Below the pieces are notes generated by a model that was not told the origin of the DNA, ran no database searches, and saw only the letters and a list, made by a program, of their open reading frames with translations. This document shows positions 11,061 through 34,115 of a DNA stretch of 46,571 nucleotides, piece after piece. Numbering within the stretch: position 1 is the first letter of the stretch; each line of letters starts with the position of its first letter. This DNA is from an uncultured Hyphomicrobiaceae bacterium. Lineage in GTDB: Bacteria > Pseudomonadota > Alphaproteobacteria > Rhizobiales > CAMYJA01. The stretch lies in assembly GCA_947258705.1 (NCBI GenBank), contig CAMYJA010000015.1, positions 51,936-98,506 on the forward strand, in the 5' to 3' direction. A program made the translations under genes and the position numbers.

Positions 11061-11826
11061 TTTATTCTCCAATCCAAATCTTTTTCATGTCCGTATCACG
11101 CAAATGCTCCATGCCCGAAGGCCGACCACCTGCATTTGTGAGCCTGGAACGCGCGCGAATTTACGGACGCACGGATCTCAAGGCGACGCCTAACGCATTA
11201 CTGGATTACTGATTATGGGAGATACGCCCCACGTATACTCTCGGTACTCGAACGGTACTCGCAAGCTCTTGAGATCAAAAGGTCCGGGCGGGATTTGAGC
11301 CGATCGTGATGGCTCGTTTTCCGCCTTTGATGGCCGCCCCAGCACTCATGAGCGCAACAGGGTGGCACGCCTTTAATAGATCTCACACGCGAAACTGTAG
11401 AATCTATGGTTTAATAAATACTTGATCGGCAAGGTCAGCGTAAACCATTTCCGCCCAATCGACAGGCAAATCACCCCCGCCTGTGTCTAAATGGTCACTC
11501 TGCCTCCCGCCAAGCCCTAATTTTTCCGGTTTTACCGATTCTGATAAAGGCGGAGAATGTTAACAACTCACCCTCTTATCCGCCCCTTCGAACATGAATC
11601 CCGGGTTTTGGACGTTATCACTGCAAATATGTGACAGCGATTCGCCGGATTTACGATGAGAAAACAGGGGACGTTACGTGAACTCTGGTTATGGGCAGGG
11701 GATCTGTGGTTATGGGGGGGGGGGCTGTGGTTATTGGTATCGGATCTGTCGGCCAGGTGCCCTATGGCGGCAGGCAAGTGACAGGCGGAGGAATTCCCCC
11801 GCCTGTCATCTTTACTCGTATTGCGG
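11061..11826. other. Intergenic region upstream of porin 1
   Basis: About 770 bases with no supported gene. The part next to the porin should hold its promoter and a long 5' leader. The distal part contains GGTTATGG-type near-repeats and an 11-G run. Open frames of 69 and 185 codons cross this area, but their compositions are unlike proteins and one overlaps the DsrE-type gene antisense. Confidence 0.5.
11714..11724. repeat. Run of eleven G
   Basis: A mononucleotide G11 tract between imperfect copies of CTGTGGTTATGG. Such tracts are prone to length change. It lies about 100 bp downstream of the DsrE-type gene and about 650 bp upstream of porin 1. Confidence 0.85.
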
Positions 11827-12263
11827 TTATGGCCGCAAGTAGCTGTAACCCTTTTCCTGAAGCGAGATCAGCTGGATCACACCGGAAGGTACTTTTTTGC
11901 TTCCGAAATGAGGGCAACGTCCTTGCCGGCTTTCTTGCTCATCTTGCGATGGGTGTTGCCGCAGGCAGAAAACTTGATGTTCGAATTCGCCAGCGCCATC
12001 GAAGCGATCCGGGCTTTCACCGGGCTGGTATCGGCGCGGAACATGTGCAGTCCGGGCCCATAGGCGACGACTTCCACGGAGACGGTATCGCCCTTCTTCT
12101 TGTAGTAGTTGATGGTGTTCTGGACGTTATTGAGGGTCATGCCCATGACCTTCTTGTCGTTCTCATCAACATGAAACGCAACTTTGTGGTCAGCCGCGAA
12201 AGCGGCCCCGCTGGCAAATGCCAATGCTACAAGTGCAACCACTACTGAAGTCAGCCGGTTCAT
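11827..12263 (-). CDS. Secreted DsrE-family protein, full length only after a -1 frameshift
   Basis: In the first frame the product is 128 residues and stops at a TGA at 11877-11879. It has a signal peptide (to about AFA at 23), then a DsrE-like fold with VEVVAYGPGLHMF and a Cys in FSACGN. Family members end with a segment like VPAGVV...GWAYIRP. Here that segment (VPSGV...GYSYLRP, 21 residues) is present in the -1 frame immediately after codon 124 and ends at a TAA at 11827-11829, giving about 145 residues. The switch point is A_AAA_AAG in the correct phase. Either programmed slippage, a real one-base lesion or a homopolymer sequencing error explains this. The start is secure (GGGAG 7 bases upstream). 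DsrE relatives handle sulfur or redox chemistry; the exact role is unknown. Confidence 0.75.
11892..11898 (-). other. A_AAA_AAG slippery heptamer
   Basis: On the minus strand the codons GCA AAA AAG place the heptamer exactly as X_XXY_YYZ. This is the class of site used in bacterial dnaX -1 frameshifting. The zero-frame stop follows four codons later. A pairing CCTTCC with GGAAAAGG downstream is possible but begins only 3-4 bases after the site. Confidence 0.5.
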
Positions 12264-12417
12264 ACGTATTCTCCCATAAGTTTATAGTTATTGTTTTAGC
12301 CCGGCTACGGTAGCACCCGCCCGATGCCGTTACTATCGGGGGCAACACCGGCTTCGATCAAAACCTGTCACGTTTTTGTGACCGTGAGGCGGGTGCGAAC
12401 TATGGGCGGGTATGATG

Positions 12418-12462
12418 CTTCATCCTTCGAGACGCGAAATGAATTCGCTCCTCAGGATGAGG
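12418..12462. repeat. Intergenic palindromic repeat, copy A
   Basis: Arms CATCCTTCGAGACG... and ...CTCCTCAGGATGAGG form a long imperfect hairpin. It resembles CTCATCCTGAGGAG...GTCTCGAAGGATGAG elements that recur between genes in Hyphomicrobiales. Copy A and copy B are in opposite orientation. Confidence 0.65.
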
Positions 12463-12491
12463 TTTTTATCTTTCCCGATCAACCCGCCACG

Positions 12492-12545
12492 CCTCATCCT
12501 GAGGAGAGCATGTGGCTAAGCCACAGCTCGTCTCGAAGGATGAGG
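12492..12545. repeat. Intergenic palindromic repeat, copy B
   Basis: CCTCATCCTGAGGAG at the left pairs imperfectly with CGTCTCGAAGGATGAGG at the right, with an inner hairpin TGTGGCTAAGCCACA. Same family as copy A, inverted relative to it and 30 bp away. Confidence 0.7.
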
Positions 12546-12582
12546 TTTTTTATTTTGTGGCGCCCTCCCGACGATCACGCGC

Positions 12583-12614
12583 AAAAAAAAGCGGCCCCTC
12601 GAGAGGAGCCGCTT
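12583..12614 (-). terminator. Terminator of porin 2
   Basis: The same GC-rich hairpin as after porin 1 (AAGCGGCTCCTC/GGGGCCGCTT on the minus strand) with a T-run, evidence that the porin duplication included its terminator. Confidence 0.85.
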
Positions 12615-12641
12615 TCTGTATTTTACGCTGGTAAGTTCGAC

Positions 12642-13889
12642 TTAGAACTTCATGCTGCCACCGAGGAGAATCGAGGATGATTCGTCGCTCGTCGGATCAC
12701 CAGGCTGGTCCTCTTCATAGAAGCGATAGCTGGCGAACATCTGGAAGGCGGCTGCATCGAAGTTCTGGACAACGCCCAGTCCCCACATTGTGCCTTCTGC
12801 CGTCGTGTTGGCGCTTGTGTCTTCCTGCTCGGAAGCGAAGTACTCGCCGTAGATGCCGGATTTACCCATGCCGAACCAGTTCTTCAGGAAACCAGCCTTG
12901 ATATACCAGTAAGTGTCCTCGTCGGTATCACCAACCGCGATCCCGTCGTCACGCTTGCCAGCAGCGAAGTTGATGTTGAAGCCGGACGGGGTATGGAGAA
13001 TACCACCGGAACCAATCAGGCATTCCTCACCAAACGGTTGAGTGCCACCTGACACGTTGGCGCAACCGCCGGAGTCACCCGTGGTGCCATCGTCTTCGGT
13101 CTCGATATAACCGATGCCCGCGGCAACTTTGAAGTCACCGAACTTTTGCGCGAAGCGAAGAGCCACATCCCAGTAGTCACTTTCACCCCAGGACGCGCTC
13201 AAGACGAAGCCGGCCAGTTTTGGCGTGTCGTAACGAACCCGGTCACCACGTCCACCGCCGTCAAAGTTGGCGAACAGTCCGCGTGCAACAAATCCGTCCA
13301 CGAGCGTGTTGTTCACGTTCGAACGTGCGAAACGCTTGGTGCCCGAGAGGTCGATCTCCGCAACCTTGTCAGACGCCGTATGGCTGTGACCCCAGGACAA
13401 CTTGCCCATGCTCTTCGATTTTATGTGGATGACGTTATGGCGAAGTGCCAGACCTTCGGCTTCGGCGCCGTCATCATCGGTCGGGCTTGTGTTGTGGAGC
13501 AGCGAATCGCTTGACGACCATTCAAACTTGTATCCAACGGATACGTCTGAGTTGATCTTGGCACCGCCCTTGATGCCCCAACGTGAAATACCGCTCATGG
13601 CGATATCGACATTGTATACATCCGAATTGCTGAGACCAGCGCCGTTGTCTTCGTCCCAGAACAACACTGCGCGGGTAATGATGCCGTAAAGCTTGACGGA
13701 AACCTTGCGGTTGCCCTTGCGTACAGTCGTTGCTTCAAGTTCTGCAACACGCTCTTCCAGATCTGCACAGCAATCTCCACCGAGACCACCAGCCTGAGCT
13801 GAAGAAAGCGCGTAGCCTGTCATAAAAATACCAGCCGCTGCCGCTAAGGCAAACCGACTGGATGTCTTTAAAAGTCGTCCCCCGATCAT
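12642..13889 (-). CDS. Alphaproteobacterial outer-membrane porin (paralogue 2)
   Basis: 415 residues. It opens MIGGRLLKTSSRFALAAAAG with a signal peptide to about AQA, the coiled-coil head GGDCCADLEERVAELEATTVRKGNRKVSVKLYG, and beta-barrel repeats such as MSGISRWGIKGGAKI, LSWGHSHTASD, NNTLVDGFVARGLF and GGRGDRVRYDTPK that are also found in paralogue 1. It ends LLGGSMKF. GGAG lies 10 bases before the ATG. The order on the minus strand is porin 2, DsrE-type gene, porin 1, each well separated, so they are probably independent transcripts. The paralogues may be expressed under different conditions or differ in pore selectivity. Confidence 0.92.
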   Translation of the reverse strand: MIGGRLLKTSSRFALAAAAGIFMTGYALSSAQAGGLGGDCCADLEERVAELEATTVRKGNRKVSVKLYGIITRAVLFWDEDNGAGLSNSDVYNVDIAMSGISRWGIKGGAKINSDVSVGYKFEWSSSDSLLHNTSPTDDDGAEAEGLALRHNVIHIKSKSMGKLSWGHSHTASDKVAEIDLSGTKRFARSNVNNTLVDGFVARGLFANFDGGGRGDRVRYDTPKLAGFVLSASWGESDYWDVALRFAQKFGDFKVAAGIGYIETEDDGTTGDSGGCANVSGGTQPFGEECLIGSGGILHTPSGFNINFAAGKRDDGIAVGDTDEDTYWYIKAGFLKNWFGMGKSGIYGEYFASEQEDTSANTTAEGTMWGLGVVQNFDAAAFQMFASYRFYEEDQPGDPTSDESSSILLGGSMKF

Positions 13890-30147: not shown

Positions 30148-30550
30148 TCCTTTTCGAATTTTCTGCCAAAGCTCTGACTTGGGCACGCAGAAACGGCCAT
30201 CCGAAGGACGAAACGCATCGAAGACCTAATGCCCCCGAAGACCGGACAAGAATTAATCTCGCTTTCCATTTAAAGTGTAATTCTTGTTCGGTCGGGGTTT
30301 TCGCTGTTTCAGCGCGATCACGTATTTTAACCCCTCACTATTACCGCTGGTATAGCCGGTAGCCGGCGCCCGGGCTTTTGTCCGGGCTCGCTGCAAATGA
30401 TCCGATCCCGGTCCGATCCGATCCCGAGCCGCCGGCATGGCCGGCCGGCAATATCCCCCGTCTGAAATTCCGCGTTTGCATAGGCCGCTTTGTTTATTTA
30501 TGATCTTTCAGCCAGACCTGTTGCCGGAAACACCGAAGGGGGAGCGCGCC
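30148..30550. other. Intergenic region before the ferredoxin-reductase gene
   Basis: About 400 bases without a credible gene. It has a 16-bp inverted repeat at 30240-30293 and GATCCGATCCC-type near-repeats around 30398-30427. The frame of the next gene is open from 30437, but the ATG at 30551 has the convincing ribosome-binding site. Confidence 0.5.
30240..30293 (+). terminator. Long inverted repeat, possible terminator of the cyclase gene
   Basis: GACCGGACAAGAATTA and TAATTCTTGTTCGGTC pair over 16 bp with one G-T wobble, around a 22-nt loop, followed by GGGGTTTT. It lies 93 bp after the cyclase stop. It could instead be a protein site or a small RNA element. Confidence 0.5.
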
Positions 30551-32050
30551 ATGACCCAGCTTTTGAACGTATCGAGGGCCGCGCGACTGGCTGGCGTCTC
30601 ACGCCACGAAATTCAAAACAAAATCGGCTCGGGCCAGCTTGAGACTTTTGAGGGCGAAGTCAAGATCACCGATCTCCTGCGCGTCTTCCCGCAGATCGAT
30701 CTCGATCGCGATCCGACATTCGAGCATCTGGAAAAGATCAAGGCCAATGCCCAGCCCAAATTTCCCTGGCAACAGAACGAGCTTCCCAGCGTCGAAGTGC
30801 TGTTGCGGAGGGTGCAGACGCTGACCGGCCTGCTGGTGCAGACCAAGAGCAAGCTCGACCGGAACGTCGAGCTTCTTGAAAACGTGACACGGGATGTGGC
30901 CGACCTTTCCCAGGAGAAAAGCCTGAGCGCAAATGCCAGGGACCGGATCAGCAGCCTGCATCAAGTGTTGACCGAAAGGCCGGATGCAGGGGATTTGCAG
31001 CCGAACGACGCCGCCATCCTGTTTACGCGGAACCTGCTCCTGCACATCATCGCTCCCAATGTTCAGTTTATACCAAGCGGTCACGAATTCCTGGTCGAGG
31101 GTGGGGATACGGTTCTGGACGGTGCAATCAGGTCGGGACTGAATGTGACATATGGCTGCAACGACGCAAGCTGTGGCGGCTGCAAGGCGCGGGTCATTTC
31201 CGGACAGGTCGTCGAGACGCGGTCACCCAACTGCAAGCTCAGCGACCATGAGAAGCAGATGGGCTACACGCTTATGTGCTGCAATACCGCCGTCACCGAC
31301 CTTGTGCTCGAGGCGGCCGAAATCAATTCGCCCGCGCAGCTTCCGGGGCAGAGCGTCGAGACCGTCGTGGCCGGCACGCAGGAGTTGAGCGACGACATGT
31401 CGCTGTTGCACCTGAAGACGCCAAAGTCACAGAATTTCCGCTTTTTTGCCGGACAGAGCGCGACGCTGGCTCTGAACGGGGGAGCCAGGACGACATTCCC
31501 GATCGCCAGTTGCCCCTGCGATGGCGAAAATCTTCATTTTCACGTACCAAAGCCCAGGGATGAACAGCACTATGACGAATTCCATGATTTGCAACGGGGC
31601 GATTCAGTGACGGTTAGCGGCCCCGTAGGCGATTTCGTCCTGCGCGACGACTCGACCAACCCGACCTTGTTCATTGCCTGCGACGGTGGGTTCGCACCGG
31701 TCAAATCCCTTATCGAACACGCCATCTCCATCGACAAGATCGAGGCCTATCACCTTTACCGCTTCGCATCGCCCGACATGACGGCCTATTACGACAATCT
31801 CTGCCGGTCCTGGCGTGACGCGTTCGACAATTTCAATTACACCGAGCGGGAATTGAGCGGCGACCCGGCCGCAGCCATGTCGGCCATCGCCGACGATCTC
31901 CCCGACCTCAGCCGGTTCGATGCCTATGTCGCCGGCCCCAGGATGTTTGCGGAAGCCACGAAAAGGACGCTGGTCGAAAACGGCCTGCCGGCGGATCGTC
32001 TGAGCTTCGAGATTCTACCGGACAGGGAGTTTCATCTCAAAGCCGGATAA
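30551..32050 (+). CDS. Fusion of HTH-like head, coiled coil, [2Fe-2S] ferredoxin and FNR-type reductase
   Basis: 499 residues from the ATG at 30551 (GGGGGAG 7 bases upstream). Residues 1-50 (VSRAARLAGVSRHEIQNKIGSGQL...VKITDLLRVFP) look like a MerR/excisionase-type helix-turn-helix. Residues about 80-140 are a heptad-rich coiled coil (VQTLTGLLVQTKSKLDRNVELLENV). A plant-type [2Fe-2S] ferredoxin follows with Cys 203, 208, 211 and 243 (CNDASCGGC...MCC). The rest is an FAD/NAD reductase module with FFAGQSATLAL and ACDGGFAPVKS at about 376-386. It should pass electrons between NAD(P)H, flavin and iron-sulfur. The next gene is a DsrL-like flavoprotein 115 bases on. The HTH-ferredoxin join is unusual; whether the head binds DNA is unknown. 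Confidence 0.82.
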   Translation: MTQLLNVSRAARLAGVSRHEIQNKIGSGQLETFEGEVKITDLLRVFPQIDLDRDPTFEHLEKIKANAQPKFPWQQNELPSVEVLLRRVQTLTGLLVQTKSKLDRNVELLENVTRDVADLSQEKSLSANARDRISSLHQVLTERPDAGDLQPNDAAILFTRNLLLHIIAPNVQFIPSGHEFLVEGGDTVLDGAIRSGLNVTYGCNDASCGGCKARVISGQVVETRSPNCKLSDHEKQMGYTLMCCNTAVTDLVLEAAEINSPAQLPGQSVETVVAGTQELSDDMSLLHLKTPKSQNFRFFAGQSATLALNGGARTTFPIASCPCDGENLHFHVPKPRDEQHYDEFHDLQRGDSVTVSGPVGDFVLRDDSTNPTLFIACDGGFAPVKSLIEHAISIDKIEAYHLYRFASPDMTAYYDNLCRSWRDAFDNFNYTERELSGDPAAAMSAIADDLPDLSRFDAYVAGPRMFAEATKRTLVENGLPADRLSFEILPDREFHLKAG

Positions 32051-32053
32051 GTT

Positions 32054-32075
32054 GCGACTTGACTGGCAAAGTCGC
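32054..32075 (+). other. Intercistronic hairpin
   Basis: GCGACTT and AAGTCGC pair perfectly around an 8-nt loop, 3 bases after the ferredoxin-reductase stop. There is no T-run, so it is more likely an mRNA-stabilising element than a terminator. Confidence 0.4.
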
Positions 32076-32165
32076 GATCGGGCGGCCAGACTGCGTGACA
32101 GCCAAAGCCCTCGGTCCGGATCGTTTTAGATCGCTTCACGACATGCCAGAGGGAGACCCGCTGCC

Positions 32166-34115
32166 ATGGATCAAAAAGAACGCAACTTCCGCCGATACAA
32201 GGATGGCGAGGAGTACGATGGTTTTGAGCTTGAAGAAAAGATCTTCCAGCAGGATACCTCCTATAAATGTCCGACCTATGTGCACCGCACGCCGCCATGC
32301 CAGGGCAGTTGTCCGGCCGGTGAGGATATACGGGGCTGGCTTAATATCGTCCGCGGCATCGAAAAACCACCGGGCGAGATGGCCGAGGAGGAATTGGGAT
32401 GGGCCAAATACGCCTTCCAGCGCGCCACCGACGCCAATCCCTTCCCTGCCATAATGGGGCGGGTCTGTCCGGCGCCATGCGAAGACGGCTGCAACAGGAA
32501 CGAGGTGGAGGACCGTGTCGGCATCAATTCGGTCGAGCATTTCATCGGCGATTACGCACTGGAAAACAAGCTGCCGCTGCACCCGCCTGCCGATTTTACC
32601 GGCAAGAAAGTCGCACTCGTCGGCGGCGGCATTGCCAGCCTCACCTGCGCTTATCAATTGCGCCGCATGGGCCATGCCTGCACGATATTTGAAGGGCGCG
32701 CCATGCTCGGCGGCATGATGCGCTACGGCATTCCCGGCTACCGCACCCCGCGCGACGTGCTCGACGGTGAAATCGACCGCGTCATCTCCATGGGCATCAA
32801 CGTCATGACCAACACCAAGGTCGGCGTCGATGTCGAACTCGAGGAGCTCGAGCGTCACTACGACGCCATTTTCCTGGGGCTCGGCGCCCAAGGCGGTTCG
32901 CCGCTGCCAGTGCCGGGCGCCTCGGAGGCAACCAATTGCATCAGCGGAATATCCTTTCTCGATGCCTTCAATGACGGACGGCTGAAACATTCGGCGCAGC
33001 GGGTCTTGGTGATCGGCGGCGGCGATACGGCGATGGACGTGGCAGCCGTCGCGCGCCGTCTTGGACATATCACGCAGCAACACGAGAAGGACAGGCCGGA
33101 ATATGTCGTGCTGGGGCATACGACCCATGACGTCGCAACCGCGGCGCGGCGCGAAGGCGCCGATGTCACCGTCATCTACAGGCGGCCCATCGAGAGCATG
33201 CCGGCGGCCAAGATGGAGGTCCAGCATATACAGCAGGAAGGCGTGAAAATACGTGGCTCTCTCGCTCCCGTCGAAGTCGTTCTCGACGCGCCGGACAGGG
33301 CGAAGGCGCTGCGCGTCGTCGAGGCCGACTGGAGCTCGGGCAAGATGGAAATAAAGGAGGGCAGCGAGTTCGACATCGAATGCGACCTCATCGTCGCCGC
33401 CATCGGGCAGGTCTGCGAGTTCACCGGAATCGAGGCGTTCGACAATGGCCGCGGGCTTGTGAACGCGGACGCTTATTTCAGGTGGCCGGAGCGGGAGGGC
33501 ATATTCGTCGCCGGCGACGTTGTGCGTCCGCATCTTCTGACAACGGCGGTCGGTCAGGCCTCGATCGCGGCCAACAGCATCGACCATTATCTGCGCAATA
33601 TGGAATTGGACAGCCTGCCCAAGGTCAATGTCCATCATTTCAGCCTGCACGAAAAACTTCGTGAAACGGGGCTCCAGCCCCAGGAGTACGACCACGTTGC
33701 GGAGATGGGCACGGACAGCGCCGATTACGCCATTCATAATTATGAAAACCGCGCGGCAAACCAGATCGTACCGGCGGACGAGCTTTTTCTTGGCCATTTC
33801 GATCATGTCGATCGTTTCCTGCGATCGGAAAAGGACATTCACTCGGAAAATGTCCTGGGGCATTTTGACGAACGCATCTATGCGCCGACGCCGGAAGAAG
33901 CTCAGAAGGAGGCCGACCGCTGCATGAGTTGCGGCATTTGTTTCGAATGCGACAATTGCATGATTTATTGCCCCCAGGACGCCATCTTCAGGGTGAAGAA
34001 GGATAAGGCGACCATGGGCCGGTATGTCGATACGGATTACGACAAATGCATCGGCTGTCACATCTGCGAGGATGTCTGCCCGTCCGGCTATATCAAAATG
34101 GGGCTGGGAGCATGA
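32166..34115 (+). CDS. DsrL/GltD-like NAD(P)H oxidoreductase with C-terminal 4Fe-4S ferredoxin
   Basis: 649 residues. The N-terminal GltD-like iron-sulfur region has CQGSCPAGEDIRGW and VCPAPCEDGCNR. FAD binding is at about 148-165 (KKVALVGGGIASLTCAYQL), NAD(P) binding at about 279-295 (VLVIGGGDTAMDVAAVARRLG), and an insertion of about 28 residues follows. FVAGDVVR marks the second FAD contact. The C-terminus holds two 4Fe-4S clusters starting at Cys586 (RCMSCGICFECDNCMIYCP and KCIGCHICEDVCPSGYI). The length and layout match DsrL, the NAD(P)H:acceptor oxidoreductase of sulfur metabolism, but no dsrAB is present. It probably works with the preceding ferredoxin-reductase; the partner and direction of electron flow are unknown. 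Confidence 0.85.
   Translation: MDQKERNFRRYKDGEEYDGFELEEKIFQQDTSYKCPTYVHRTPPCQGSCPAGEDIRGWLNIVRGIEKPPGEMAEEELGWAKYAFQRATDANPFPAIMGRVCPAPCEDGCNRNEVEDRVGINSVEHFIGDYALENKLPLHPPADFTGKKVALVGGGIASLTCAYQLRRMGHACTIFEGRAMLGGMMRYGIPGYRTPRDVLDGEIDRVISMGINVMTNTKVGVDVELEELERHYDAIFLGLGAQGGSPLPVPGASEATNCISGISFLDAFNDGRLKHSAQRVLVIGGGDTAMDVAAVARRLGHITQQHEKDRPEYVVLGHTTHDVATAARREGADVTVIYRRPIESMPAAKMEVQHIQQEGVKIRGSLAPVEVVLDAPDRAKALRVVEADWSSGKMEIKEGSEFDIECDLIVAAIGQVCEFTGIEAFDNGRGLVNADAYFRWPEREGIFVAGDVVRPHLLTTAVGQASIAANSIDHYLRNMELDSLPKVNVHHFSLHEKLRETGLQPQEYDHVAEMGTDSADYAIHNYENRAANQIVPADELFLGHFDHVDRFLRSEKDIHSENVLGHFDERIYAPTPEEAQKEADRCMSCGICFECDNCMIYCPQDAIFRVKKDKATMGRYVDTDYDKCIGCHICEDVCPSGYIKMGLGA

Follow-up and report, generated by a model that had tools for sequence, protein, structure and literature searches.

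What might a DsrL-like flavoprotein and a ferredoxin-reductase fusion be doing side by side in a stretch of DNA that carries no dsr genes? The question is raised by 46,571 nucleotides (the window) from the genome of an uncultured Hyphomicrobiaceae bacterium (GenBank assembly GCA_947258705.1, contig CAMYJA010000015.1, positions 51,936 to 98,506 of the forward strand). Two genes are concerned: P0002, encoding a fusion of a helix-turn-helix (HTH) head, a coiled coil, a ferredoxin (Fer2) domain and an FNR-fold domain, and P0003, encoding a DsrL-like protein. Both open reading frames (ORFs) are present in the window (Table 1). The first-pass annotation, made from the sequence alone, had described them as a two-gene module without dsrAB, shuttling electrons from NAD(P)H to an unknown acceptor. 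The P0002-P0003 locus is real and biologically meaningful, but it was mis-framed as a Dsr-free module. On balance, it appears to hold two accessory parts of the reverse Dsr system placed outside the operon, namely a second DsrL acting as an NADP outlet and a Dsr-linked redox protein.

The absence of dsr genes held for the window, where none was found, but not for the genome. A complete reverse-dsr (rdsr) locus with its own DsrL is located on contig C2 of the host genome (G000, locus L041), in the order tauD-like gene, dsrA, dsrB, dsrE, dsrF, dsrH, dsrC, dsrM, dsrK, dsrL, dsrO, dsrP, glycosyltransferase-like gene and dsrN. In the literature the tauD-like gene is called dsrQ, dsrA was matched by model TIGR02064 (E 3.8e-171), and an ORF between dsrL and dsrO resembles dsrJ by sequence. 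Since an operonic DsrL is encoded in the same genome, P0003 is a second DsrL, and its interpretation as the orphan DsrL of a dsr-free genome is ruled out by the full rdsr locus. The acceptor need not be unknown either, since dsrAB and a full dsr operon are at hand.

The DsrL layout proposed for P0003 was borne out. The protein falls into NCBIfam family NF009410 (685 bits, cut-off 516) and comprises an N-terminal Fer4_20 domain, a GltD-like core and a C-terminal 2x[4Fe-4S] domain, with the predicted cluster cysteines at both ends all kept. It shares 58% identity (residues 7-648) with the operonic copy encoded in G000 and 78-81% with its orthologues in three relatives. Its length, aligned insertion and linker match those of operonic DsrL proteins, whereas Nfn proteins lack the insertion. 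An insertion in the NAD(P) domain of DsrL-1A was described by Loffler and colleagues (PMC7596348), and according to the same study the DsrL-1A of Allochromatium vinosum favours NAD(H), DsrL-1B is restricted to NAD(H), and DsrL-2, which carries YRR, is restricted to NADP(H). At the phosphate site of DsrL-1 sequences stands S/T-x-x, and according to the published kinetics YRR, reported in DsrL-2 only, marks NADP(H) specificity, and lack of YRR goes with NAD(H) (PMC7596348). P0003 has YRR where the operonic DsrL of G000 has TLF, and it is named DsrL-1A-like rather than DsrL-1A because YRR replaces the NAD-type S/T-x-x motif. With YRR at the phosphate site, NADP+ is expected as its cofactor, and with TLF, NAD+ is expected for the operonic copy; judged by this motif, P0003 has apparently been switched from NAD to NADP. 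The NAD(P)H link suggested earlier is likely.

The YRR motif is not confined to the window. In a motif survey of fetched DsrL genes, YRR was found in the window, in G095, G058, G011, G527, G696 and G782 and in the second copy of G048, and the other DsrL genes were of the S/T type or carried SRE. In a tree of 27 DsrL sequences, built without DsrL-2 sequences, the YRR sequences formed one supported clade (99/98), including a secondary change to SRE, and this clade was separated with 100/100 support from the alphaproteobacterial DsrL of the usual kind. In two other alphaproteobacterial lineages (G527 and G696/G782) the YRR DsrL is the operonic one, and the dsr operon of G048 encodes an SLF copy followed in tandem by a YRR copy, so that this lineage can act as an operon's own DsrL. 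Additional non-operonic DsrL genes with SRE instead of YRR were observed in G696 and G782 (L164:9188-11155 and L166:207-2117), a further case of a duplicated DsrL whose cofactor motif has changed. Two DsrL copies are also known from the tandem dsrL1L2 operon of Myxococcales, for which a DsrL1-L2 heterodimer has been suggested (PMC7596348). In the literature searched, no remote second DsrL copy of the YRR type came up, and PMC7596348 alone mentions the YRR motif together with DsrL.

For P0002, the fusion of HTH, coiled coil, ferredoxin and reductase-like parts was supported by Pfam, NCBIfam, PDB profiles and the predicted fold. Fer2 was recognised by Pfam (E 2e-10), and its ligands C203, C208, C211 and C243 are all invariant in the family. 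For the FNR-like part Pfam gave no more than a weak match (FAD_binding_6, E 0.008), but NCBIfam, PDB profiles (BenC, T4moF) and the fold showed it clearly. The AlphaFold model (59 homologues) had a mean predicted local distance difference test score of 88, with block means of 91-95 at residues 11-50. In structural comparisons, Fer2 plus FNR reached Z 28.0 to 5ogx and 26.1 to 1krh, the FNR region reached Z 26.4 to the FAD/NAD region of NqrF, and the Fer2-FNR remainder matched BenC, T4moF and GcoB.

The HTH-like nature of the head also stood up. Residues 1-165 were modelled separately (33 homologues), and both models showed a strand, a helix-turn-helix, a wing and a helix, followed by a 40-residue helix. 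Residues 2-48 matched Xis (4j2n; Z 6.0, root-mean-square deviation 1.8, 47 residues aligned) and BldC (Z 5.8), with MerR-family proteins including SoxR among the lower matches; Z values of this modest size are to be expected for so small a domain. HTH_17 was matched in 7 of 10 fusion family members. A PDB sequence search for a family label of the HTH-coiled-coil part returned coiled-coil noise only. Invariant head residues are R18, Q22, I25, G28, L30, F33, G35, L42 and P47, and the recognition helix, which holds R18 and Q22, frequently has K or R at positions 23 and 24. No paper combining the features of this fusion, and no name for it, was found in the literature searched.

The FNR-like part departs from its relatives at the flavin site. 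In ordinary Fer2-FNR relatives the motif R-x-[YF]-S (RRxYS) is preserved, and BenC has RxYS at the very site where SCPC stands in P0002; SCPC was found in 78/78 fusions and RxYS in 0/78. In addition, the CGP motif with the catalytic cysteine reads AGP in P0002 and the homologues inspected. Because RxYS is gone and CGP is changed to AGP, it should not be taken for granted that P0002 binds flavin or reacts with NAD(P)H. The earlier description as a plain FAD/NAD reductase is not supported, as the flavin motif is missing, and judging from these residues ordinary reductase activity is doubtful. The invariant CxC of the fusions might act as a thiol switch, hold a metal or a persulfide, or contact the flavin in an altered way. 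Stand-alone SCPC-type Fer2-FNR genes without the HTH head were observed in dsr-positive alphaproteobacteria (L042:9315-10349 on contig C8 of G000, L057:12299-13333, and L006), and in G000 and G008 this gene lies directly upstream of glutaredoxin- and nitrilase-like genes. The HTH-coiled-coil part occurs as a separate small protein in three genomes (G008, G696 and G782); such proteins are encoded at L172:9504-9935 and L056:2592-3056, and the one of G696 adjoins a universal-stress-protein-like gene.

The fusion was met almost exclusively in dsr-bearing sulfur oxidisers. In an even sample of 398 Pseudomonadota genomes, 5/53 with dsrA and 0/345 without it had the head domain (naive Fisher p 3.5e-5, phylogeny ignored), the five carriers representing five families. 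When 84,980 species were scanned, not exhaustively, for a single peptide pattern, 80 loci were kept. Many of them come from lineages recognised as sulfur oxidisers, for instance Thiobacillus, Sulfuritalea, Sulfuricella, Gallionellaceae, Sulfuricaulis, Thioploca and Halobeggiatoa. The 75 genomes behind the 80 loci carry dsrA in 62 cases and a close DsrL in 8 others (70/75 in total). The fusion is a marker-like companion of Dsr. That the HTH-coiled-coil had been overlooked in other dsr-positive groups was not borne out by a sensitive profile, which gave two weak matches only (E 1.7e-5 and 6.4e-4) in 44 dsr-positive and 36 other genomes.

The neighbours of the fusion gene vary between loci. In G337, the fusion lies in a dsr neighbourhood and adjoins the tauD-like dsrQ gene, and the order at L111 is soeABC-like genes, an SQR-like gene, one further gene, the fusion, a Sfum_1244-family gene, CMD-Rieske, a tauD-like gene, a TusA-like gene and dsrA. 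At 20/80 loci, the fusion is followed at a distance of no more than about 1.3 kb by a gene of the Sfum_1244-family cluster. This Sfum_1244-family (DUF6866) gene lies 3' of the fusion in many betaproteobacterial loci (the L111 copy at 11781-12842), and it might correspond to A. vinosum DsrS. In g12-type relatives, an sseA-like (3-mercaptopyruvate sulfurtransferase) gene directly follows the P0002 orthologue (L047:6126-8526; L068-L071).

A mechanism can be proposed in which gene content, homology, motifs, predicted folds and co-occurrence are observed, and rDsrAB docking, nucleotide specificity, DNA binding and any regulatory target are inferred. By analogy with the DsrL enzymes studied so far, P0003 would dock on rDsrAB, and the electrons from the oxidation of sulfane sulfur to sulfite would pass via its [4Fe-4S] clusters to FAD, which would reduce NADP+, while the operonic DsrL with TLF would reduce NAD+. 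The cell could then choose NADH or NADPH as output, or run the reaction in reverse from NADPH. P0002 is tentatively taken as a DNA-binding redox sensor built from an oxygenase-type reductase. This is slightly favoured over a docked reductase because of the MerR-like layout (winged HTH, coiled coil, sensor) together with the loss of the flavin signature for the invariant SCPC, and because of the conserved basic recognition helix and the stand-alone HTH-coiled-coil proteins in three genomes. The wider proposal, that the fusions form a new class of redox-sensing transcription factors with a degenerate oxygenase reductase as sensor, controlling Dsr in many Pseudomonadota and here standing beside an NADP-switched DsrL, is somewhat unlikely.

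Several results weigh against this account. Adjacency of P0002 and P0003 was found in the host genome only, and their orthologues lie on separate contigs in three relatives (G011, G058 and G095), which rules out a conserved operon and leaves little of the two-gene module envisaged at first. Either gene can be present without the other: among 26 dsr-positive alphaproteobacteria, 6 have both the YRR DsrL and the HTH domain, 2 the YRR DsrL only, 2 the HTH domain only, and 16 neither, so the co-occurrence is loose (p 0.003 by genome, 0.07 by family). What ties P0002 and P0003 together is that both are part of Dsr sulfur oxidation. Even this link has its exceptions, as 5/75 fusion carriers have neither dsrA nor a close DsrL, and most other dsrA-positive genomes sampled lack the fusion, which is therefore not essential to Dsr. 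As regards DNA binding, the net charge of residues 1-50 of the window protein is zero, and a conserved operator-like repeat was not found in the aligned upstream regions of five orthologues, a negative that settles nothing. The headless SCPC Fer2-FNR proteins of dsr-positive genomes suit an enzyme better than a regulator, and CbpM (3ucs) is a MerR-like head able to serve as a protein-docking module.

The last two points also favour P0002 as a true NAD(P)H-dependent Dsr reductase, in which FAD would be held via altered residues, electrons would pass to the [2Fe-2S] cluster, and the head and coiled coil would dock, instead of DNA, a partner that could be a component of rDsr, a sulfur carrier or some other acceptor. 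The four invariant Fer2 cysteines, the confidently modelled FNR fold and the recognition of NAD_binding_1 in one homologue agree with such an enzyme, but RxYS is missing throughout the fusions, CGP has become AGP in those inspected, and R18, Q22 and the mostly basic positions 23 and 24 are retained as for DNA contacts; we regard it as possible, leaning to the doubtful side. For P0003, the corresponding question is whether it has been drawn away from rDsrAB as a DsrL-derived NADPH:acceptor oxidoreductase, feeding for example P0002 or another sulfur enzyme. Its position outside the dsr operon in the host and three relatives, its place beside a Fer2-FNR protein in the host and the wide reuse of GltD-like modules for electron input would suit this, yet members of the same lineage are operonic in G527 and G696/G782 and in tandem in the G048 operon, the DsrL cluster ligands are all kept, and adjacency to P0002 is not conserved, all of which makes such recruitment unlikely.

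The operonic occurrence of the YRR type in G527 and G696/G782 bears as well on the idea that P0003 and the operonic DsrL form heterodimers, so that a single rDsr complex would use both NAD and NADP. The homodimeric DsrL of A. vinosum, the heterodimer suggested for dsrL1L2 (PMC7596348) and the SLF-YRR tandem of G048 point in that direction, but evidently no SLF partner is needed, and we consider this arrangement quite improbable. A conserved NAD(P)H-driven electron shuttle with no Dsr link, as first proposed, would suit the position of the two genes on the same strand, 115 bp apart, with no terminator-like site seen between them; it is hardly credible, being already contradicted by the genomic evidence that both genes are strongly dsr-associated and not conserved as neighbours. 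The preferred reading remains that of two accessory reverse-Dsr parts.

The NAD(P)H yield of a lithotroph depends on the fate of the electrons that sulfur oxidation delivers at rDsrAB. If a second, DsrL-1A-like enzyme with an NADP motif does operate here, some bacteria would steer sulfur electrons to NADPH, which is useful for CO2 fixation, and the rule that DsrL-1 uses NAD and DsrL-2 uses NADP would have to be read by sequence motif and not by clade. RuBisCO was present in 8/8 YRR-DsrL genomes examined, but also in most dsr-positive relatives; since it is near-universal in dsr-positive alphaproteobacteria (22/26), it is not diagnostic, and NADPH for autotrophy was rejected as a discriminating factor. 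DsrL and dsr-linked redox proteins were already known; what is new, as far as the literature was searched, is the SCPC fusion and a DsrL-1A-like paralogue with YRR.

The coordinates are shown in Table 1. For P0002, the ATG at 30551 was preferred to an upstream in-frame ATG at 30437 because homologues begin at the same residue and a AGGGGGAG-type ribosome site lies ahead of it. The pair is flanked by a GGDEF gene and an alpha/beta hydrolase gene in a housekeeping region (kdsA, pyrG, secG, tpiA, a PpiD-like gene and trpE), these neighbours being named from a reading of the translations. The DM13 gene remarked on earlier is real (PF10517, 35242-35739, close to secG; its protein has a WCEQ motif and, at the N-terminus, a hydrophobic stretch), but it showed no link to the pair, and no DM13 gene was noticed beside the orthologues, although no systematic search was made.

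Table 1. Positions in the window of the two genes and of their domains and motifs.
Feature	Position	Strand	Description
P0002	30551..32050	+	499 aa; winged-HTH / coiled coil / [2Fe-2S] Fer2 / FNR-fold fusion
HTH head of P0002	30551..30694	+	residues 1-48; MerR/Xis/BldC-like winged helix
Coiled-coil / helical segment of P0002	30791..30976	+	residues 81-142; coiled coil = helix 81-120
[2Fe-2S] ferredoxin domain of P0002	31058..31315	+	residues 170-255
FNR-fold domain of P0002	31346..32017	+	residues 266-489
SCPC of P0002	31508..31519	+	S320-C323; at the site of the FAD-binding RxYS motif; invariant
P0003	32166..34115	+	649 aa; second DsrL, DsrL-1A-like, YRR/NADP-type
DsrL-1A-type insertion in NAD(P) domain of P0003	33066..33158	+	about residues 301-331; missing from NfnA-type relatives
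YRR motif of P0003	33177..33185	+	residues 338-340; aligns with YRR of Nfn proteins
C-terminal dicluster [4Fe-4S] ferredoxin domain of P0003	33921..34082	+	

Compared with known systems, P0003 resembles DsrL-1A of the A. vinosum type in its domain order, cluster cysteines, NAD(P)-domain insertion of about 32 aa, long linker and NF009410 membership, with rDsrAB encoded in the genome, but differs in having YRR instead of S/T-x-x, in being a second copy outside the operon and in belonging to another lineage than the usual alphaproteobacterial DsrL. It shares YRR, the NADP(H) marker, with DsrL-2 of the Desulfurella amilsii type, whereas it has the DsrL-1A insertion and goes with an oxidative-type dsr operon carrying dsrEFH. 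As in the dsrL1L2 tandem of Myxococcales SURF_8, two DsrL and an oxidative dsr operon are found in one genome; the SURF_8 pair is in tandem within the operon, while P0003 is remote from it. With MerR-family regulators (SoxR, MtaN, HiNmlR) and Xis/BldC heads P0002 has in common a winged-HTH head, then a coiled coil and a C-terminal sensor-like part, but its sensor is different, the sequence match is weak (HTH_17 only) and its DNA binding is putative. With the oxygenase reductases BenC, T4moF and GcoB it shares the order and fold of Fer2 and FNR (Z 25-28), from which it is set apart by the missing RxYS, AGP in place of CGP, the invariant SCPC, the added HTH and coiled coil, and a Dsr-linked distribution.

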